Source of the DNA: Corallococcus sp. NCRR
GTDB taxonomy: Bacteria; Myxococcota; Myxococcia; Myxococcales; Myxococcaceae
DNA: 64,000 nucleotides
Reading direction: 5' to 3'
Assembly: GCF_026965535.1 (NCBI RefSeq)
Contig: NZ_CP114039.1
Span: 5,394,001-5,458,000 of the forward strand
Each line of letters opens with the position of its first letter. Position 1 is the first letter of the stretch. A program made the position numbers and the translations under genes. Below, in pieces: positions 4,297 to 14,030 of the stretch. The notes below the pieces were generated by a model that was not told where the DNA came from, searched no databases, and worked only from the letters and a program-made list of their open reading frames with translations.

Positions 4297-6393
4297 CTAG
4301 TCGACGAGCAGCCGCTTCACGGGGGCAGGGTCCACGGCCACCATCAGGGGCCGGGTGAAGTGGCTGAACGACATCAGCGCCTGGCCTGGAGCGAGCCGCG
4401 ACACACGGTTCCACAAGCTCTCGTCGATGCTGCCCACGGACTTCTGCATCCGGCTGATGACCGCGCCGTCGGTGATCTTGTGGATGACGAAGTTGTTGAG
4501 CAGGGCCAGCACCTCGTCAGGCAGGTGCTGGGGCAACTGCGTGACGAAGACGAGCCCCAGCCACCGCTTGCGGCCCCGCTTGGCGATGCGCGCCACCTGT
4601 TCGAACAGCACGGGCATCTGCTTGATGCGGCTGGTGGACAGGAACTCGTGGGCCTCCTCGATGATGATGAGCACGGGCGTGACGCGTTTGTTCCGCTCGG
4701 CGGCTTCCTGGTAGCGCCGCTCCTGGTGCTCCTGGAGCCCCCGGAGGATGTCCGCGATGACCAGGTTGTTCAGCTGCGGCGAGTCCGTGTTCGACAGGTC
4801 GATGACCGACACCCGCCCGGCCTGGAGCATGGAGTCGTAGTTCACGCCAGGAGTGTTCTCGACGTCGAAGACCTTCAGCCGCTTCAGCAACTGGAGCTTG
4901 TTGCCCAGGGTCTTCCAGCTCAGCTCGGAGGTGCTCCTCTGCGCCATGACCCGGCCCTTGACCAGGTTGACCCTGGTCCGGAACTCGCTGAGGAGCGAGA
5001 GGCCTCGCGACACGGTGGGCACATCCTCGGAGCCGTCCTCCTCTCCATCCGACTCGTTCTCCTCTGCCCGCCTGCGCCGTCCGCCGCCGGCCCGAGCCTC
5101 CGTGCGGCCCTCGCTGCCCAGGGTGTATGTATAGGTGTTTACGACATCCAGGATGTGATCGATGGTCATCCGAGGGTAGCCGGTGTCCTGTTCATCCAGC
5201 TCCAGGATCTGCTGCTTCTCGGCCTCGTTCCGAGGGAAGATCTTGAAGTCCTCCAGGAGCTGCTTCGTGACGTCGAAGGCGCGCAGGAAGCGTTCATGCT
5301 GCGCATCCGACATGTTCAGGATCTCCGAGATGGCATAGGGCGACAGGCTGGAGAACTTCAGCGAGAAGCCGTGCCGATGCTTATGGCTGGGATTGCGACT
5401 GTCCCGGCCCGTGAGGTGGTGGATGTGCAGGTCCTTCACCCCTTCCGGCCTTTGCTTCCGCTGCTTGAGCAGCTCCTGCATCGGTTTGTCGTCGGTGGGC
5501 TGGTCCACGTGGGTGTATTCACCCTCGACGTCAAAGACGATGGTCGCGATGCCGGAGAGCTGCGCCCGGTGGATGAGCGTCGCGACCGTCGTGGACTTGC
5601 CGCCACCCGTGGTGCCGATGATTCCGGTGTGACGGGGGAGGATGGCCTTGTCCTGGGGATCCAGCCGCGCCTCCATGTTGTCATACCCCACGACCCGGCC
5701 CAGGCTCATCGCCCCGCCCACGCCCAGCACCTTCGCGCTCTCTTCCTCGCTCAGCACGAAGACCGGGCTCTGGGGCCGGGGCCGGAAGCGGGGCGGTTGC
5801 AGCACGCCGCCGACCTCCTGTCCCAGCAACTCCACCTCGGCGCGGCCGTGGTACTCGAACGTGTACGTCAGCTTCTTTCCGTGCGTGATGACGCCCACGG
5901 CCATGGTGGAGTTCGCGGGGACGGCGTTGGGCTCCGCGAACGGCCCCCGGACCACGACCCCCAGGTAGTCACGCTTGTCCTCGCGCGACTTCACCCGCAC
6001 GAGCGTCTGGGAGGCCAGCCGGGGCAGGTCATCACGGGTCATCAACACCGTGAGCACGTTGTCGTCGCTGCTCGACGTGTCGAAGTGCGTGAAGCCCACC
6101 GCGTTCGCCAGCTCGGGGTCGGGTTGGTACAGCCCGGCCCGGTTGCTGATGTCGGCCAGTTCGTTGAGCGTCCTGGGGGGCGTCTGACTGATGAGCGGCC
6201 TCTTCGGCCCCTGCTGCGGCGCGGGCCTGCCGTCCGCGGAGACAGGCGCGGCGGCGGGCTTCGCGGGGCCTTGCGCGGAGGGGGCCGCGGGACTGCCGGC
6301 CTGCCGGGGCGGAAGAGGCTGCTGGGCGGGGTTCGAAGCGCCGTTGAGCGATGCGGGAACTGCGGGATGCGGTGTCTTGCCGTTGTTCGCCAT
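4297..6393 (-). CDS. herA: HerA-type hexameric DNA translocase (DUF87 ATPase)
   Basis: 698 aa from the ATG at 6393, 19 bases after the NurA-like gene. Residues 1-65 are a Pro/Ala-rich tail. Residues 70-230 match the HAS-barrel found in HerA. Walker A is GTTGGGKST (about residue 260), directly followed by IVFDVEGEYTHV. Walker B is VLIIIEEAHEF (about 575), then VTQLPQHLP and a C-terminal Arg-containing segment typical of the FtsK/HerA family. HerA hexamers encircle DNA and drive NurA in end resection, and related HerA proteins serve several anti-phage systems. A charged low-complexity insert (RRRRAEENESDGEEDG) sits at about 430-460. Last gene of a five-gene operon. Confidence 0.92.
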   Translation of the reverse strand: MANNGKTPHPAVPASLNGASNPAQQPLPPRQAGSPAAPSAQGPAKPAAAPVSADGRPAPQQGPKRPLISQTPPRTLNELADISNRAGLYQPDPELANAVGFTHFDTSSSDDNVLTVLMTRDDLPRLASQTLVRVKSREDKRDYLGVVVRGPFAEPNAVPANSTMAVGVITHGKKLTYTFEYHGRAEVELLGQEVGGVLQPPRFRPRPQSPVFVLSEEESAKVLGVGGAMSLGRVVGYDNMEARLDPQDKAILPRHTGIIGTTGGGKSTTVATLIHRAQLSGIATIVFDVEGEYTHVDQPTDDKPMQELLKQRKQRPEGVKDLHIHHLTGRDSRNPSHKHRHGFSLKFSSLSPYAISEILNMSDAQHERFLRAFDVTKQLLEDFKIFPRNEAEKQQILELDEQDTGYPRMTIDHILDVVNTYTYTLGSEGRTEARAGGGRRRRAEENESDGEEDGSEDVPTVSRGLSLLSEFRTRVNLVKGRVMAQRSTSELSWKTLGNKLQLLKRLKVFDVENTPGVNYDSMLQAGRVSVIDLSNTDSPQLNNLVIADILRGLQEHQERRYQEAAERNKRVTPVLIIIEEAHEFLSTSRIKQMPVLFEQVARIAKRGRKRWLGLVFVTQLPQHLPDEVLALLNNFVIHKITDGAVISRMQKSVGSIDESLWNRVSRLAPGQALMSFSHFTRPLMVAVDPAPVKRLLVD

Positions 6394-6412
6394 GGTGTGT
6401 GTCTTTCCCCCG

Positions 6413-7600
6413 TTACCGACGTGATTCGCGCTCGAGCAGATACTGGAGGTGGGCTCCCGCCTGCGCGTAGGCGTCCTGCACCAGGCCTTCGAAACCGTCC
6501 TCGCCGAAGACGCTGCGGCACGTGAGCTCCGCGACGTCCAGGAGGAGGGGATAGCTCTTCTCCAGACGCAGGACGCTGTCCGCCATGGCCACTCGGACGG
6601 CCATGTGGACGTGCTCACGGTGCGCGTAGAACAGACGCGGGGCCGTGCGGCCCGAGACCCGGAAGACGCCCAGGAGCACGTCCTTGCCGTGTTTCTGCAC
6701 GAAGGCCTGCGCCAGCGGCAGGCGGGGGTCGGTGGCCTTCCACGCGTGGAGCAGTTGTTCGCTCTGCCGCTCCAGGGTCTCGAAGACGATGTATTCGCCC
6801 GCATCGAGCGCCAGGCCCAGCGTCAGCAGCCCCCGCTCCATCTGCGCGTTGGAGACGAACACGAACTTCTGCTGGTCCCGGACGAGGCGCTCCAGCACGT
6901 CCAGCGAGGCCTTCAACAGGCTGAGGTGGCCCGAGCCGGTGAGCAGCTCATGCGCGAAGGGATTGCCCTGCCCGAGGCGCCACTCCGCCGTCACCTTGTC
7001 CACCAGGATGGCCCGCTCGGCGTAGGTGCGGATGCCCCGCTGGGCCAGACGGGAGAGGATCTCCCGGTGGCTGACGGTCTTCGAGTTGTGGCGGTTCGCG
7101 ATGTAGTCGATGGCCTCCTTGAGTGGATTGGTGTCCTTCGCCGCCAGGTCCTTGCGGAACAGGCGCTGGGAGAAGGTCCCCGCGCTCCCCTGGTAGCCCA
7201 CGGCCGCGACACCAATCTGGGTGATGCCCAAAGGCAGACTTTCATGGGACACCGACGTGCCGAGCACGGCGACGACATTGCCGGGGAACAGCAGGCCTTC
7301 GTGGATGGTGGCCAGCTCCTTGCCGTAGGCCCGGAACACGCCCGACTCCGGAGGGGCGCGCTTGCGTCCCGCGAGCCGTGGCAGCAGCTCCGCGCGGATG
7401 ACCTGCCGCATGCGGTCTTCCTTCTGGACCGAGGTGGAGACCTCCCGCTGGAACCGGGTCATGATCTCCTTCGGATCCACGCCCGGGCTCCACGTGTCCA
7501 GGTCCAGCGTCTGCGCCAGGTCCTCCCCAAAGGTGGACCGGAACTCCTGGTCACCCAGGAGGTTGGACTCGTCGTCGTCAGGGGGAGTCTCGTCAGCCAT
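6413..7600 (-). CDS. Divergent NurA-like nuclease-fold protein, partner of HerA
   Basis: 395 aa from the ATG at 7600, which has AAAGG five bases upstream. A GTG at 7606 overlapping the previous stop (GTGA) is an alternative. Assignment to NurA rests on position directly before herA, on length, on a central beta strand VVAVLGTSVS where NurA has its xxAVDGS motif, and on the C-terminal YPLLLDVAELTCRSV that resembles the late NurA motif. The metal-binding Asp of DGS is Leu here, so catalysis may be lost or rearranged. Residues 105-260 are RNase-H-like in pattern, judged by eye. The family call is tentative; the link to HerA is firm from synteny. Confidence 0.65.
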   Translation of the reverse strand: MADETPPDDDESNLLGDQEFRSTFGEDLAQTLDLDTWSPGVDPKEIMTRFQREVSTSVQKEDRMRQVIRAELLPRLAGRKRAPPESGVFRAYGKELATIHEGLLFPGNVVAVLGTSVSHESLPLGITQIGVAAVGYQGSAGTFSQRLFRKDLAAKDTNPLKEAIDYIANRHNSKTVSHREILSRLAQRGIRTYAERAILVDKVTAEWRLGQGNPFAHELLTGSGHLSLLKASLDVLERLVRDQQKFVFVSNAQMERGLLTLGLALDAGEYIVFETLERQSEQLLHAWKATDPRLPLAQAFVQKHGKDVLLGVFRVSGRTAPRLFYAHREHVHMAVRVAMADSVLRLEKSYPLLLDVAELTCRSVFGEDGFEGLVQDAYAQAGAHLQYLLERESRR

Positions 7601-7602
7601 TG

Positions 7603-8331
7603 TCACCTTTCGTCATCACCGAAGAAGTCGACCACGGAGAACTCCGGATGCCGACGGCGCTTGCGCAGCATCCGGGCGTAGGTCCGCGCGGCGGCCGTCG
7701 GCAGACCGAACACGGCCTCCAGGCACCGGGGGCCCTCCATCGCGGACACCTCGTTCAGCTGCGCGCGCGCTGCGGTCATGGGCGCGAGGAGCTCCAGGGC
7801 CAGGTGGTCCGCCCGCTGTTCCGCCAGCAGCACGGCCCCCGAGTCCACGTCGCCGCCTTCTCCGCGGTCCATCAGGTGCACCTGGAGGCCCAGGGGCACG
7901 TCGCTGAAGCGCGAACCCATGTACTCATCCACCCGGGGCGCCCGTTCGCCGTCGAGCACGGGGAGGATGTCCTCGCCGAAGAAGTCCAGGGCCCGGGTCC
8001 GGGGCAGGAGGTGGTCGAGCACGTAGTGCGCCACCTCGTGAGCCAGGGTGAAGCGTTGCTCCGCCTCGGAGTCGTCGCTGTCGAAGAACAGCGTGGCGGC
8101 TCCGGCCCTGGCCACCATGCAGCCGTAGAGCCGCCGGTCGGCGCCGCTCAGCTCGTCCGGCAGGCCGTGTTGGGCGAGCCATTGGCGCACGCCCTCCACC
8201 GTCAGCCCCGGCAGTCCCACCAGGTCAAGCGGATGCCGCCGCGGGGCCTCCGTCGCGATATCGCGGGGAAATCCCGGAGGGAAGGAGAGCCGGCTCTGGG
8301 TGACGGCCTCCACCAGCCATTGCTCGGTCAT
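7603..8331 (-). CDS. ImmA/IrrE family (M78) metallopeptidase
   Basis: 242 aa from the ATG at 8331, which overlaps the previous stop as ATGA. The zinc motif is HEVAH at residues 98-102, within FTLAHEVAHYVLDH. The downstream AEQRADHLALELLAP has the Glu-x-x-Ala pattern that supplies the third ligand. M78 peptidases such as ImmA and IrrE cleave XRE-type repressors to switch on mobile-element or DNA-damage genes. The protein encoded just upstream is the obvious candidate substrate. There is no transmembrane segment, so it is cytosolic. The next stop and start are also nearly overlapping, indicating translational coupling with the nuclease gene. Confidence 0.9.
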   Translation of the reverse strand: MTEQWLVEAVTQSRLSFPPGFPRDIATEAPRRHPLDLVGLPGLTVEGVRQWLAQHGLPDELSGADRRLYGCMVARAGAATLFFDSDDSEAEQRFTLAHEVAHYVLDHLLPRTRALDFFGEDILPVLDGERAPRVDEYMGSRFSDVPLGLQVHLMDRGEGGDVDSGAVLLAEQRADHLALELLAPMTAARAQLNEVSAMEGPRCLEAVFGLPTAAARTYARMLRKRRRHPEFSVVDFFGDDER

Positions 8332-8708
8332 GGATCGAACTCGTCCTCGAGCGGGACTTCTTCGTCGCGGTCGCGGGCCGCCAGTTGAATGGTCCCTCGG
8401 ACCGTGCCCTGGGCGGGCTTGCGCAGGGTCCGCAAGACCTGGACGCGCCGGAGCACCAGCACGAGCTTCTGGACGTCGACCCCGAAGCGGTCGGCGATGG
8501 CGCGGGTCTGTTCCTCGAAGGCTGGCCCATCCGGCGTCGTGCAGAGCGACAACCACTGGAACACTTCCGGCGTGCACCCCAGCCGCTGAACCAGCGATGC
8601 CTCCGAAAGCTTTTCCATCTCACGGTAGGCAGTGAAGACGTGGCCGAGCATTCCCGCCTCGCCCGTGCTGCGCTCCGCTGCTCGCTTCAACCAATCAGGA
8701 TTCGTCAT
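8328..8708 (-). CDS. Small HTH-like protein, putative target of the M78 peptidase
   Basis: 126 aa. It begins inside the sigma-factor gene (14-base overlap) and ends in an ATGA overlap with the peptidase gene. Residues 25-85 look helical, with an XRE-like pattern: SEASLVQRLGCTPEVFQWLSLC, then IADRFGVDVQKLVLVLRRV. The C-terminal tail is acidic (DEEVPLEDEFDP). In ImmA/ImmR and IrrE/DdrO pairs the peptidase and its DNA-binding substrate are encoded side by side, so a repressor or anti-sigma role is plausible. The HTH call is weak and made by eye. Confidence 0.7.
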   Translation of the reverse strand: MTNPDWLKRAAERSTGEAGMLGHVFTAYREMEKLSEASLVQRLGCTPEVFQWLSLCTTPDGPAFEEQTRAIADRFGVDVQKLVLVLRRVQVLRTLRKPAQGTVRGTIQLAARDRDEEVPLEDEFDP

Positions 8709-9276
8709 CGTGTCCCTCCTCGAAGAGGCGCTTCAGCGCCTTCATGAGGCGGTCCTGGTTTCGCTTCACCTCTCGCCGGCGTTCGAGCTGGGGCAGGTGC
8801 ATCAGTCCCAGCACCTCCGCCAGGCGGTCCGTGGACCGCTCTCCGGTGAGCATCAGTCGCAGACAGGCCTGGTCCCTCTCGGAAAACCCTGCCTGGTCGA
8901 ACTTCTTCAAAATCAGGTCCACCTCCGCGCGGGTCTCCATGTCCTTGTTCGGTTCCCTGGACCAAACTGCGACAGCACCCCCGAAATCCCTGTTTCGGAG
9001 TGTCCTGGCGCTGGAGGAGCGGAAGCGATCCTGGGCTCTACGCAGCGCAATGCGTCCCAGGTAGGTGCTCAGGCTGCTCTTGTGGGGGTCGTACTTCAGG
9101 GGCTTCTGGAGGTACGCGTACACCGCGTCGATGGCCGAGTCGTTGGCGTCGTCATCGTTACAGCCCGGGTTCCTTTTCAATGCCCGGATCAGTGGATCCA
9201 TGAACGTCAGGAAGACGTCCACGGACGCCGTCCGGTCCCCGCTCAAGATCCGTTCGTGAAGATCTCGTCCATTCAT
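8695..9276 (-). CDS. ECF-like sigma factor, first gene of HerA operon
   Basis: 193 aa from the ATG at 9276; a GTG at 9285 is possible but less likely. Region 2 is visible at about residues 45-85 (AIDAVYAYLQKPLKYDP, then SLSTYLGRIALRRAQDRFR). The region 4 helix-turn-helix is at about 130-185 (FSERDQACLRLMLTGERST, then RREVKRNQDRLMKALKRL). It lacks sigma regions 1 and 3, as ECF sigma factors do. Sitting first in the operon, it could make the whole set self-amplifying. No anti-sigma with membrane helices is present; the small HTH-like protein next to it may play that part. Phage- or element-derived sigma-like regulators are the alternative. Confidence 0.82.
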   Translation of the reverse strand: MNGRDLHERILSGDRTASVDVFLTFMDPLIRALKRNPGCNDDDANDSAIDAVYAYLQKPLKYDPHKSSLSTYLGRIALRRAQDRFRSSSARTLRNRDFGGAVAVWSREPNKDMETRAEVDLILKKFDQAGFSERDQACLRLMLTGERSTDRLAEVLGLMHLPQLERRREVKRNQDRLMKALKRLFEEGHDDES

Positions 9277-9324
9277 CCCCCACACCTCACTGACATGCGC
9301 ACGCCCGCTTTCAGGTTGGCTCCG

Positions 9325-9355
9325 GTCCGTACGGACTTTCGCTACAGGCCTGTAG
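9325..9355. promoter_or_regulatory. Two adjacent perfect palindromes upstream of sigma-M78-NurA-HerA operon
   Basis: GTCCGTACGGAC (9325-9336) and CTACAGGCCTGTAG (9342-9355) are each perfectly self-complementary and five bases apart. They lie 49-79 bases upstream of the sigma-factor start, where an operator or activator site would sit. No other gene starts here. The second resembles many HTH operators (CTACAG-N2-CTGTAG type). Likely autoregulatory sites for the HTH-like protein; this is inference. Confidence 0.55.
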
Positions 9356-9476
9356 AGTTCGACGACAGAGCGTCTCCATCCGAGCCGGCAGGTTGGCGAG
9401 GTCGAGGATCCGTGTCTGTACCTCGGAGGTGGTACTGCCTTTGGGGACAGGGTCTCTCGTGATCCCCCGAGGATCG

Positions 9477-9513
9477 AAAAAGACCCTGGTCTCCTTTCAG
9501 AGAGACCAGGGTC
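9477..9513 (-). terminator. Rho-independent terminator of the aspartate decarboxylase gene
   Basis: A perfect 12-bp inverted repeat (arms 9482-9493 and 9502-9513, loop of eight) is followed on the minus strand by TTTTT. It sits 24 bases after the decarboxylase stop and separates that gene from the HerA operon downstream. Confidence 0.9.
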
Positions 9514-9537
9514 CGTTTCATCTCGTTGCGCCGTGTT

Positions 9538-11205
9538 TCAATGCGTCGCGCCAGGAGGCGGTTCGCCTCGGGCCTTCTTCCACGCATCCAGGGCGCGAAG
9601 CACTTCATCCCGGAGTTCCCGGCCAATCCGTGGATACGCGTCATCCTCCAGATTCGCCAATGACACACGGGCCGACCAGGGAGGTCCGTCGAAGCCGCTT
9701 CCATTGAGCAGCACCACGCCGTAGCGCCGGGCCAGCGTGAAGACGAGCTCCAGCGGGTCGTGGTGGTCCTCGATGAAGCGGACGAAGTCCTCGCCAATGT
9801 GCTCGCGGCACCAGGCTTCCAGGTCGAGCGTCTGGTAGTAGGCCGTGCGCAGCGGGTCCTCGAGCAGCGGGATGTCCAAGCCTTCGAACAGGTCCCGGAG
9901 CCGGTCCTGGCAGATGCGCTGGCAGTACTTCTTGTAGGCCCCGTCCTTGTCCAACAACGCGAACAGCGAGAACAACGTCATCTGGAGCTGCTGCGGCAGT
10001 GACAGGCCCGCGGTGTGGTTCAACGCCACGGCCCGGCTGTCCGCCACCATCCGGTCGATGAACTTCAGCCGCCCCGGGTGCATCGAGATGGCGCCATACC
10101 GCGCCTCCAACCGTGCGCGCTCCGACGCGGGCTGCTTCGCCAGCGCCTCATCCAGGATGTTGTCCTCGTGGAGCGCCACCACGCCCAACCGCCAGCCCGT
10201 GCAGCCGAAGTGCTTGGAGTACGAGTACACCAGCAGCGTGTTGCGCGGCAGGTCCGCGGCCAGTGAGCGGAAGCCGTTGACGAACGTGCCGTAGACATCA
10301 TCGGTGATGATCAACAGGTCCGGCCGGCGCTTGCGCACCAACTCCACCAGCTTGTGGACGGACTCCTTGCGCATCGCCACCGCGCCCGGGTTGGACGGGT
10401 TGACGACGAAGAACGCCTTGACGCGCGGGTCCTCCAGCTTGCGCAGCTCCGCGTCCGGGTACTGCCAGGTGTGAAGGCCGTCCTTCGTGGTGGCGCTCTG
10501 AAAGATGTCCACCGTGCGCAGGCTGAACTCCTCCAGGCGCGGAATCTCCAGGTAGGGCGTGAAGATGGGCGCGCCCAGCGCGATGGTGTCTCCCTTTCGC
10601 AAGAGGCCGTTCGCCATCAGCGAGTGGAAGAGGTAGGTCATCGCGGCGGTGCCACCCTCCACCGCGAACAGGTCGAAGCGGCCGGAGGGCGGCCGCCCCG
10701 TGAACAGCTCCTGCGCCAGGTACTCCTGCACGATGCGCTCACCGTGGGCGAGCATCCGGTCCGGCACCGGATAGTTGTCTCCAATGACGGCGTCCGTGAG
10801 CTCCCAGACGAACCGGTCCGGGTTGAAGCCCAGCGTGTGCACCCCGTACGTCAGCGCGCCGCGCAACAACTCCACGGCGGGCTCGTCATCGCTCGCCTCC
10901 AGGAAGTCTTGCAGGCGCCGGGCGATGCCCGGGGAGCGGGGCATGCCCGCGAGCCCCACCTCGGGGACGTCCCACGCCCGCCGGCTCTCCGCGAGCGCGA
11001 ACTGGCCCAGGAGGAAGAAGGCCTCGCGCGGCGTGGTGGCGATCCAGTTGGGGTTGCCCCGGCCCGCGTTGAGCATCACGGCCTCGCGGGTCTTCACGGC
11101 CTCGTCCGCGACCTGAAGGAGCTCGTCCTTCAGCTCGAAGGGGCTGAGCTTGTGGAGCTTGCGTTCGGAAGGGGCTCCCGGGGCCTCGGGCGTCTGCTCG
11201 GTCAT
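9538..11205 (-). CDS. aspD: Aspartate 4-decarboxylase (bifunctional aspartate aminotransferase), PLP-dependent
   Basis: 555 aa from the ATG at 11205, with GGAGGA six bases upstream. The protein matches the large class I aminotransferase-fold aspartate beta-decarboxylases that convert L-aspartate to L-alanine and CO2 with side transaminase activity. Visible features are an N-terminal extension, VEGGTAAMTYLFHSL, NPSNPGA for cofactor and substrate binding, DDVYGTF, and the Schiff-base lysine in YSYSKHFGCTGWRLG (about residue 330). Length is right for the family (about 530-550). It is cytosolic, transcribed alone, and closed by an intrinsic terminator. It lies divergent to the acyltransferase gene. 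Confidence 0.93.
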   Translation of the reverse strand: MTEQTPEAPGAPSERKLHKLSPFELKDELLQVADEAVKTREAVMLNAGRGNPNWIATTPREAFFLLGQFALAESRRAWDVPEVGLAGMPRSPGIARRLQDFLEASDDEPAVELLRGALTYGVHTLGFNPDRFVWELTDAVIGDNYPVPDRMLAHGERIVQEYLAQELFTGRPPSGRFDLFAVEGGTAAMTYLFHSLMANGLLRKGDTIALGAPIFTPYLEIPRLEEFSLRTVDIFQSATTKDGLHTWQYPDAELRKLEDPRVKAFFVVNPSNPGAVAMRKESVHKLVELVRKRRPDLLIITDDVYGTFVNGFRSLAADLPRNTLLVYSYSKHFGCTGWRLGVVALHEDNILDEALAKQPASERARLEARYGAISMHPGRLKFIDRMVADSRAVALNHTAGLSLPQQLQMTLFSLFALLDKDGAYKKYCQRICQDRLRDLFEGLDIPLLEDPLRTAYYQTLDLEAWCREHIGEDFVRFIEDHHDPLELVFTLARRYGVVLLNGSGFDGPPWSARVSLANLEDDAYPRIGRELRDEVLRALDAWKKARGEPPPGATH

Positions 11206-11412
11206 GGTGTCCTCCTCCAGCGTCTGTCCAAGGTGAGCCATTTCCGGGGACATGGGCCATGCGCCACGGGGTGGGGCGGGCGGAGGTGGCGGGCGGTTGG
11301 CCGGGCTCAGCGAAAAAAGACAACCCGCGAGCGCACTCGGCCGAGCAGCGGCGAATGAAAGGTCGGGGCCGGACACACAAGTCCGGCAAGCACCGTGGAA
11401 ATGAGACCCGCC

Positions 11413-13001: not shown

Positions 13002-14030
13002 TCAGCCCGGCTTCTGCCTCCGGGCGGCCTGGTAGAGGAGGTCCGTGCGGCTCTCGATGCCCAGCTTGGGGAAGATGTTGCGCAGGTGGGTCTTCACCGT
13101 GTTGAGCGTCAGGCCCAGGTCCTCGGCGATGAGCTCGTTGGTCCAGTTGCTGAGGACCCCCTGGACCACCTCCACCTCCCGCGGGGAGAGCTTCTGGCGC
13201 CAGGGCTCCGGTATCGGGAGGGCCCGTGTGCACTCCTGCAACACCAGTCCCCAGGGCTGGTGGCCGCGCTGCTCGGGCAGCTCCACGAACGTCACCTTCA
13301 GGTCGTGCTTCGCTCCGGAGCATGTCCACGTGTCCATGCCCGGGGGACGCTTCGTTCCCACGGCCTGGAGTCGCGCCAGGTGGTCGCGCAGCTCCTGGGG
13401 CAGGCGCGAATCATCCGCCTTCAGCTCCTCCGGATACCATCGCCGCAAGAGCTCCGTCGCTCCCGGGGTCCTCAGCTTCTCGTGCTCCGGTGGATCCATC
13501 ACGACGCACTCGGCGCCCTGCTGACGGAAGAGGGCGTCCAGCAGGTCTCCCCGCGTCGACTCGTGTCCGAACAGCCGGCAGTTGCGCACCGTGTTCGCCA
13601 GGTAGGGCGTCAGGTCCTCCAGCAGGGCCTGCTCCCGTTCGGAGAAGGGCAGGGCGTGCTCGCGGTACAGCGTGAAGCCGCCGTGCCAGCCCTCGCTCAA
13701 GTCCAGGAGCACCGCCAGCACGTGCTCCAGGGGCAGTCCCATCTCCCGGCAGCGCAGGTAGAGCAGATGGCGCTTCAATTCCTTGCGCGACACCAGGTCC
13801 GAGGCCAGCTCCGGGTAGTGCGCGAAGAGGATGCCCGGGGCCCCCAACCCCATCCACTCGTAGTCCCCGGGCCGCTCCGGCCTGGACACACAGAGCGCCG
13901 CGTAGTCACAGGGCAGGAGTCGCGTGAGGACTCCCTGCGCGCGCGCCAGGACCTCCGTCAAATCCAGTGAGCTGGCGAGTGCCTGGGTCAGCTCGAGCAC
14001 GAGCCCCTGTTCGTGCGCGGTAAGGTTCAT
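13002..14030 (-). CDS. GAF-like sensor with LuxR-type HTH regulator
   Basis: 342 aa, ATG at 14030 with AAGGAGG nine bases upstream. Residues 10-170 are GAF-like (LTEVLARAQGVLTRLLPCDYAALCV; ALPFSEREQALLEDLTPYLANTVRN). Residues 275-335 are a LuxR/GerE helix-turn-helix: LSPREVEVVQGVLSNWTNELI, then NTVKTHLRNIFPKLGIESR. It ends 18 bases from the convergent diiron-enzyme gene. There is no autoinducer-binding domain of TraR type. A GGGGG-N5-CCCCC repeat at 14085-14099 upstream could be an operator. Targets may include the acyltransferase pair or the NRPS operon; neither is shown. Confidence 0.88.
   Translation of the reverse strand: MNLTAHEQGLVLELTQALASSLDLTEVLARAQGVLTRLLPCDYAALCVSRPERPGDYEWMGLGAPGILFAHYPELASDLVSRKELKRHLLYLRCREMGLPLEHVLAVLLDLSEGWHGGFTLYREHALPFSEREQALLEDLTPYLANTVRNCRLFGHESTRGDLLDALFRQQGAECVVMDPPEHEKLRTPGATELLRRWYPEELKADDSRLPQELRDHLARLQAVGTKRPPGMDTWTCSGAKHDLKVTFVELPEQRGHQPWGLVLQECTRALPIPEPWRQKLSPREVEVVQGVLSNWTNELIAEDLGLTLNTVKTHLRNIFPKLGIESRTDLLYQAARRQKPG

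Follow-up and report, generated by a model that had tools for sequence, protein, structure and literature searches.

Passages of published reports describe CapP and PprI/IrrE as peptidases that are activated by single-stranded DNA (ssDNA) and cut a helix-turn-helix (HTH) repressor (PMC13373217, PMC10904395). For CASP-sigma/Csx30/Csx29, which belong to a type III-E system of clustered regularly interspaced short palindromic repeats (CRISPR), passages of PMC10028731 describe a sigma factor of the extracytoplasmic function (ECF) type that is freed by proteolysis of its inhibitor, has sites at cas1 and other genes of the locus, and is proposed to turn on defense and spacer acquisition. HerA pumps acting in defense together with nucleases are treated in parts of the reports on HerA/FtsK anti-invader capture systems and HerA-DUF4297 (PMC12839542, PMC11291478), a nurA-csm6-herA cluster is placed beside CRISPR arrays of Pyrobaculum in a section of PMC3396285, and a figure legend of PMC10910872 lists NurA and HerA among putative CRISPR auxiliary genes. 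Here, we consider five genes, sig, hth, M78, nurA, and herA, encoded in a 64,000-nucleotide stretch of Corallococcus sp. NCRR (contig NZ_CP114039.1, positions 5,394,001 to 5,458,000, hereafter the window), part of a single-contig 9.79-Mb genome. Each half of this system has precedents; no description of the five-gene set was found in the open-license literature searched, absence there not being absence in print, which agrees with the earlier, sequence-based note on this DNA that knew of no named system with exactly this set.

The locus is probably an unnamed, self-contained inducible DNA-defense module controlled by a locus-private, self-amplifying sigma switch. The evidence comes from the conservation of the gene set and order, the protein folds, promoter-like elements located upstream of sig and within it, and the gene neighborhood in other phyla.

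Conservation of the Gene Set

All five genes lie on the minus strand (coordinates are those of the window): sig encodes an ECF-like sigma factor (8695..9276, ATG start, with an in-frame GTG alternative at 9285), hth a small helical protein, probably XRE-like HTH and a candidate inhibitor or repressor (8328..8708), M78 a zinc peptidase of the M78 (ImmA/IrrE) type (7603..8331), nurA a NurA-like protein (6413..7606, GTG start, with an ATG at 7600), and herA a HerA-type hexameric DNA translocase (4297..6393). The junctions are a 14-nt overlap of sig and hth, an ATGA overlap of hth and M78, a near overlap of M78 and nurA, and a 19-nt gap between nurA and herA. The identities and overlaps proposed in the earlier note were thus reproduced by the coordinates of the open reading frames (ORFs) and by domain matches; its extent of 4297–9360 needs correction, as the genes stop at 9276 (or 9285), and the promoter-like element belonging to the set extends to 9363. 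The sig/hth overlap of 14 nt is kept in 47 Myxococcaceae loci, and the 4-nt hth/M78 overlap in 52.

The search for the NurA-like protein listed 62 places in 56 genomes, from which 58 loci were fetched besides the window (G124, G137, and a fragment in G092 were left out). These 56 genomes, out of 195 searched in the phylum, all belong to one family, Myxococcaceae, and a profile search produced the same tally. The nearest named record is from Corallococcus exercitus (81% NurA identity). The order sig-hth-M78-nurA-herA is intact in 50 of the 58 loci; among the remaining eight, two (L039 and L043) have all genes in order plus an extra hth, four lack herA, with nurA close to a contig end, and two encode HTH-NurA fusions. 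A quick tree groups the Myxococcaceae rows together and places the window lineage (with G087 and G078) apart from the other 14 Corallococcus rows. The operon in a record titled Comamonas sp. KCTC 72670 (L110) probably comes from a mislabelled Myxococcaceae genome. The fragment of a second NurA-like gene in G092 (C1:7359477-7360765), preceded at close range by two promoter-like elements, seems to be the remnant of a decayed copy.

The conservation of the gene order across genomes, a check proposed in the earlier note, extends far beyond this family. All five genes in the same order were observed in 28 out of 33 non-myxobacterial loci read, the 33 including duplicates of one contig and near-identical genomes; the exceptions are a locus cut in the contig (L133/L167, one contig), L173, where only nurA and herA are seen within the fetched DNA, and the Pseudolabrys locus (L137/L175). 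Judging by titles and lineages, the intact order occurs in eight other phyla, mostly in metagenome bins. A scan of named genomes yielded 45 NurA-like loci, 16 of them outside Myxococcaceae and assigned by title or lineage to Chloroflexota, Nitrospirota, Thermodesulfobacteriota, Bacillota, Bacteroidota, Planctomycetota, Armatimonadota, Lindowbacteria, and Pseudomonadota. In a sample of 400 Chloroflexota genomes, 19 carry the operon. Two contigs from a viral collection contain it as well, one with all five genes (L206) and one with all but the start of sig, which falls at the contig end (L207), and in both a methyltransferase gene follows herA directly in the convergent orientation; plasmid and phage collections queried with one Chloroflexota NurA-like protein gave no match. 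In Pseudolabrys (L175:6255-12586), the NurA-like gene adjoins a gene for an HTH+M78 fusion protein and two phage-type integrase genes, and no sig or HerA was found.

Promoter-Like Elements

An element designated P1 (GTCGAACTC-N13-CGAA in the window, 9338..9363, minus strand) precedes sig and is a putative promoter of the cognate sigma factor. The pattern TCG[AC]ACT[CT]-N13/14-CGAA is present upstream of sig in 59 out of 59 Myxococcaceae loci, the window included; 57 elements begin with GTCG, 51–70 nt before the chosen start codon, and the other two begin with ATCG, reading ATCGAACTC. The spacing equals 13 in 55 of 57 Myxococcaceae elements. In the whole window genome, the only exact match to GTCGAACTC-N13-CGAA is P1 itself (none in the reversed control), and relaxing the spacing to 12–14 yields six matches versus four in the control, hence only the exact spacing is informative.

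The second element, P2 (GTCGCAGTT-N13-CGAA in the window, with one box mismatch; 8948..8973, minus strand), lies within the sig coding sequence and is a putative promoter for hth-M78-nurA-herA. With a slightly relaxed pattern, P2 is found in 55 of the 58 fetched loci and in the window. The constraint on P2 is seen at the level of the DNA: glutamate is encoded by GAA in 53 of 53 cases, compared to 33% in these genes overall (the P2 column included), valine, phenylalanine, or isoleucine codons at its start all have the form NTC, leucine is never encoded by CTG, proline is encoded by CCG in 56 of 57 cases, and asparagine and lysine alternate behind a fixed AA. The same constraint holds in 33 sequences less than 80% identical. 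The possibility that P2 is a mere by-product of the VEL....PN peptide was ruled out, as both the third bases and the positions that change the amino acid follow the DNA motif.

ECF sigma factors are defined by an autoregulated two-box promoter with AAC in the −35 box and a fixed spacing, and the elements at this locus conform to this definition at the sequence level. The sigma-driven self-amplification suggested in the earlier note is supported in the form of a near-private, conserved promoter-like element before and inside sig.

In the window (9325-9355), there are also two perfect palindromes, CTACAGGCCTGTAG inside P1 between the boxes and GTCCGTACGGAC just after P1, which may be operators. 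Among the 59 loci, CTACAGGCCTGTAG is a perfect palindrome only in the window and L035, and GTCCGTACGGAC only in the window. In L039, L040, and L043, an extra hth copy is located ~0.7 kb upstream of sig, each with its own promoter-like element shortly before it.

Elements of the same kind occur in the other phyla. An intragenic element, GTCG(A/C)A...GGAA, is present in 23 of the 28 complete loci and spans 27 nt overall in all 23. A further copy lies in the gap between M78 and nurA in 14 of 28 loci by the strict pattern and in 17 by a looser one, and in two loci a copy precedes herA. In total, the strict pattern has 45 plus-strand matches in the loci from other phyla, versus a mean of 3.4 in mononucleotide shuffles. 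In 17 whole genomes, we observed 15 exact copies of GTCGMACTT-N12-SGGAAY, distributed over 10 genomes (two in the reversed control). Twelve of these are in the operon, and 14 are accounted for by the operon together with the positions immediately upstream of cas4-cas1 and cas6-cas2: one copy precedes cas4-cas1 of Zavarzinella formosa, with the start codon 46 nt on, and one precedes cas6-cas2 in G361, 21 nt on and ~8 kb downstream of the operon. The only exact copy associated with neither the operon nor cas genes is found before a DUF433/DUF5615 gene pair (L218, G195:C116). In L125 (10693-15166), an element lies about 200 nt before a pair of Mre11-like and SbcC-like genes downstream of the operon.

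HerA and the NurA-Like Protein

HerA matches DUF87 (4e-19) and HerA_C (9e-12), and by profile the solved structures 4d2i (HerA, 2.2e-22) and 8wet_A (3.3e-7). Its Walker A motif, GTTGGGKS (5593..5616, minus strand), follows the pattern G.TG.GK[ST] conserved in 52 of 52 Myxococcaceae HerA proteins, and the Walker B motif is LIIIEEAH (4648..4671, minus strand). In G118, herA is interrupted (L044:6934-8096) by an insertion with a transposase-like ORF, its type judged by eye; therefore, intact herA is dispensable there.

The NurA-like protein has no Pfam or NCBIfam match over the cut-off; Pfam NurA (PF09376) matches neither this protein nor any other in the window genome. Its assignment in the earlier note as a divergent NurA was borne out by structure comparison. 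The AlphaFold2 model, built with 37 family members, is confident (predicted local distance difference test, pLDDT, 85.0) and has the NurA fold, matching NurA structures at Z 18.6, 18.4, and 18.0, with 259–289 residues aligned at a root mean square deviation of 4.0–5.0; the next matches are TdpAB chain G (Z 15.0), Deinococcus NurA (13.2), and EndoV and Argonaute (about 9–10). The sequence profile linked the protein to only one entry of the PDB, a designed protein at E 2.8, which was taken as a chance match. The aspartate of motif I is invariant in 30 of 30 non-Myxococcaceae rows of alignment A8, in a region reading VEACDGT or similar; the corresponding segment in the window, VVAVLGTS (7253..7276, minus strand), is degenerate, the aspartate at position 115 being lost.

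Switch Genes

ECF sigma factors have sigma2 and sigma4 domains and lack sigma1 and sigma3. The sig product matches Pfam Sigma70_r2 over the cut-off (7.7e-6); TIGR02937 spans residues 44–185 at 1.1e-6, below its cut-off, and there is no Pfam match for region 4. The protein is conserved across the 34 rows of alignment A5.

The hth product has no Pfam or NCBIfam match over the cut-off. Its AlphaFold2 model is a confident helical bundle (pLDDT 86.6). Profile searches and modeling, suggested in the earlier note for the HTH-like and NurA-like proteins, gave the NurA fold for the latter and weak fold matches for hth. The tail of hth carries a conserved L-x-A-A-R-D-R motif, with A110 and A111 nearly invariant in alignment A3; among the 56 free-standing Myxococcaceae hth proteins, 55 have LAARDR and one has LAAKDR. 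In the window, this motif (8367..8384, minus strand) lies in the low-confidence tail of the model and is a candidate site of recognition or cleavage by M78. The two HTH-NurA fusion ORFs (L067:9520-10977, L074:9509-11122) have sig upstream and lack M78 and HerA, and their HTH part lacks the AARDR tail. As the fusions without M78 are also without the tail motif, these two cases suggest that the tail serves the peptidase.

The M78 protein matches Pfam Peptidase_M78 (4.8e-7) and the padloc model capP (7e-9), and the best matches of its family profile among solved structures are CapP (7t5t, 0.0013) and IrrE (3dte, 0.0065). HExxH is present in 56 of 56 Myxococcaceae M78 proteins, in the window as HEVAH (8026..8040, minus strand).

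Genomic Neighborhood

A gene for an N6/N4 DNA methyltransferase adjoins 20 of the 28 complete non-myxobacterial loci, being upstream, divergent, or downstream, and cas genes (Cas6, Cas1, Cas4, Cas3, and Cas10-type) follow herA on the same strand in 10 of 28. At least one of the two, methyltransferase or cas, is present in 25 of 28 loci, the exceptions being L138, L139, and L165 (a short contig). Up to eight of 124 flank ORFs match one Cas1 model and up to 15 match one MTase_II model; no such model is matched by more than one of 124 control ORFs taken from the same genomes, a comparison weakened by the controls being one arbitrary stretch per genome, several not of full length, and holding other defense genes. 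Outside Myxococcaceae, the enrichment beside defense genes envisaged in the earlier note is thus seen relative to control stretches.

Among 76 Myxococcaceae genomes, one has a match to the methyltransferase (E 1e-30), namely, the operon carrier G062, where the two are 8.2 Mb apart along the contig. Near the operon in the window, the protein encoded at 407-1738, of the TPR/cNMP type, has a partial-length match to cyclic-nucleotide TIR effectors (1.5e-8), and the one at 13005-14030 a partial-length match to a CARF model (7.4e-5).

Variability at a Fixed Site in Corallococcus

Each of the 15 fetched Corallococcus operons (not counting the fusion L067) has a flank in common with the window on one side or both; a mobile island at this locus was therefore rejected. 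Compared to L052 and L053, the aligned flanks of the window are 89–97% identical, and the stretch between a point inside herA and the start of sig 54–82%; compared to L035, identity is 80–95% throughout, with the flanks on the whole less alike. The NurA of the window and that of the other Corallococcus class share ~50–55% identity. Such a pattern is expected from allele replacement at one site. The flanks also vary by gain and loss, several strains being unaligned over parts of 1750-2440 and 9500-11300.

Discussion

The features described above would fit the following mechanism. The ECF-like sigma factor would read mainly two-box GTCGAAC...(C/G)GAA promoters, which are situated upstream of sig or within it, in many other phyla also upstream of nurA-herA, and in some cases upstream of cas genes. 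The hth product, translationally coupled to sig, would keep the switch off through binding either to the sigma factor or to the promoters. The M78 peptidase, by analogy to CapP and PprI/IrrE, is probably triggered by ssDNA from invading or damaged DNA, and would then remove the hth product via its exposed AARDR tail; the freed sigma factor would fire P1 and P2 (elsewhere, the element before nurA), amplifying its own operon. HerA and NurA would be made, and then thread and process the invader DNA. The adjacent methyltransferase probably marks self DNA in most loci outside the myxobacteria, or else the output may feed CRISPR adaptation (cas4-cas1, cas6-cas2). In the Myxococcaceae branch, that of the window included, switch and motor are retained, but there is no adjacent methyltransferase and the motif-I aspartate of NurA is lost, so this branch probably captures or blocks DNA, or cuts it with re-arranged chemistry. 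With neither the nuclease motif nor the marker gene left, its output is the least certain part of the mechanism.

We propose tentatively, with doubt slightly prevailing, a broader view: a pan-phylum, proteolysis-triggered private sigma switch with a promoter inside the sigma gene licenses HerA-NurA and, in several lineages, genes of CRISPR adaptation and CRISPR RNA processing, and in Myxococcaceae this switch has turned into an immune locus that stands alone, has an altered nuclease, and varies strongly among Corallococcus strains at one chromosomal site.

Several observations weigh against the interpretation as an inducible defense module. The operon is present in all 16 Corallococcus genomes searched, and the 28 complete non-myxobacterial loci include near-identical ones (L168-L170; L134/L135). 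Exact P1-like matches occur elsewhere in other Myxococcaceae genomes, some of which have no operon, and other sig codons are also uniform (e.g., Glu 224 is GAG in 57 of 57), though mostly these are the common codon or fall in the hth overlap. In the other phyla, the intragenic pattern was not found in L126, L139, L159, L164, and L174, and seven of the 17 whole genomes have no exact copy of GTCGMACTT-N12-SGGAAY. The matches of the hth fold to lambda-repressor-type and XRE HTH proteins are weak, all with Z under 4 (best 3.7). The profile comparison of the NurA-like protein with three canonical bacterial NurA proteins is not significant, though the top full-profile local alignment pairs the motif-I regions. 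The motif-I aspartate is present in none of the 58 fetched Myxococcaceae loci, being replaced by N, A, T, Y, S, H, L, or C (one read by eye as N), and by Leu in the window. By spacing alone, and with the residue numbers of the archaeal enzymes, the second canonical NurA aspartate appears to fall on an invariant tryptophan in all of these proteins, which makes a nuclease activity doubtful even for those with an intact motif I.

Further points come from the neighborhood. Eight of the 28 non-myxobacterial loci have no methyltransferase gene in the fetched DNA, and by a crude repeat test the fetched stretches contain no CRISPR array. The methyltransferase gene is absent from all fetched Myxococcaceae loci, the window included, and from the window genome as a whole, which also has no Cas1, the latter being present in four of 10 Myxococcaceae genomes searched. 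The surroundings of the operon in the window are not a defense island: out of eight neighbor proteins scanned for defense families, two have weak matches and six have none.

Among other explanations, the operon might serve damage-inducible end resection, with HerA-NurA processing chromosomal double-strand breaks as in archaea, the sigma/HTH/M78 genes providing SOS-like control, and the defense neighbors being incidental; we regard this as unlikely. Parts of several reports do document end resection by HerA-NurA in archaea and Deinococcus (PMC9960219, PMC5715905, PMC4351679), Mre11-like and SbcC-like genes lie downstream of the operon in L125, the first of them preceded by the element at a distance of about 200 nt, and the 16 Corallococcus genomes searched all have the operon, with shared flanks, so the presence in every relative, which the earlier note took as a mark of a housekeeping repair locus, does hold within the genus. 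However, the operon is patchy on a larger scale (56 of 195 genomes of the phylum, 19 of 400 in the Chloroflexota sample), hypervariable compared to flanks 89–97% identical, and linked to methyltransferase and cas genes, herA is interrupted in one Myxococcaceae genome (G118), and the motif-I aspartate is lost in this family. The two-box elements themselves could be read differently, as operators of hth or of another DNA-binding protein, with the sigma factor acting elsewhere. The 14-bp palindrome CTACAGGCCTGTAG between the boxes of P1 and GTCCGTACGGAC just after it, both perfect in the window, would fit a dimeric repressor, as would the elements shortly upstream of the extra hth copies in L039, L040, and L043; but the palindromes are not general among the loci, and the boxes are asymmetric with a spacing fixed as in promoters (13 in 55 of 57 Myxococcaceae elements, 27 nt overall in 23 of 23 elsewhere), which makes this explanation improbable as well.

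The peculiarities of the Myxococcaceae branch could also mean that its module has turned into a self/non-self compatibility locus, with a nuclease-dead NurA-HerA pump and allelic specificity. The loss of the motif-I aspartate in all 58 fetched loci, the deep allele classes at one site between conserved flanks, and the NurA divergence (~50–55% identity) that separates the window from the other Corallococcus class are in line with such a role. On the other hand, the switch genes are as diverged as the effectors, and no polymorphic-toxin or immunity partner was noticed, although no search was aimed at them, and we consider this conversion quite unlikely.

If the defense-module interpretation is correct, it implies a widespread defense module whose control logic can be read from the sequence alone: one sigma factor, a promoter that is nearly private, and a brake sensitive to protease. 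In the genomes searched, the element hardly occurs outside the locus and its cas neighbors, so the regulon can be tested directly. The intragenic element is unusual in that it looks regulatory and persists across phyla in spite of codon bias, and the myxobacterial branch, with its lost nuclease motif and hypervariable alleles, raises the question of what role a HerA pump has without a nuclease.

Comparison with known systems places the effector half close to TdpAB (8wfd/8wet), which acts in phosphorothioation-dependent defense: it matches the NurA-like protein structurally (Z 15.0/14.0), and its chain 8wet_A matches HerA (3.3e-7), whereas the present module outside Myxococcaceae is usually adjoined by an N6/N4 DNA methyltransferase. 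Canonical HerA-NurA end-resection complexes of archaea and Deinococcus also pair a NurA fold (Z 13–19) with HerA; unlike them, the protein described here is missed by Pfam NurA, has lost motif I in Myxococcaceae, and is under a private sigma switch. The HerA/FtsK capture systems and HerA-DUF4297 have other nucleases and regulators, and the main text of PMC12839542 contains no word beginning with “NurA” or “ImmA.” The regulatory half shares with CASP-sigma the logic of a sigma factor, an inhibitor, and a protease, but the inhibitor and protease families differ, there is no RNA-guided protease, the module occurs either by itself or next to CRISPR loci of several types, and the sigma gene itself contains an element. 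Finally, as in CapH-CapP, a pair associated with CBASS, and in PprI/IrrE-DdrO, an HTH protein is encoded beside an M78 zinc peptidase and likely controls the adjacent operon, CapP (7t5t) being the best match of the M78 sequence profile among solved structures; in contrast to these systems, the present locus combines this pair with a dedicated sigma factor, its own conserved promoter-like elements, a short AARDR tail on the HTH protein, and a HerA-NurA effector.

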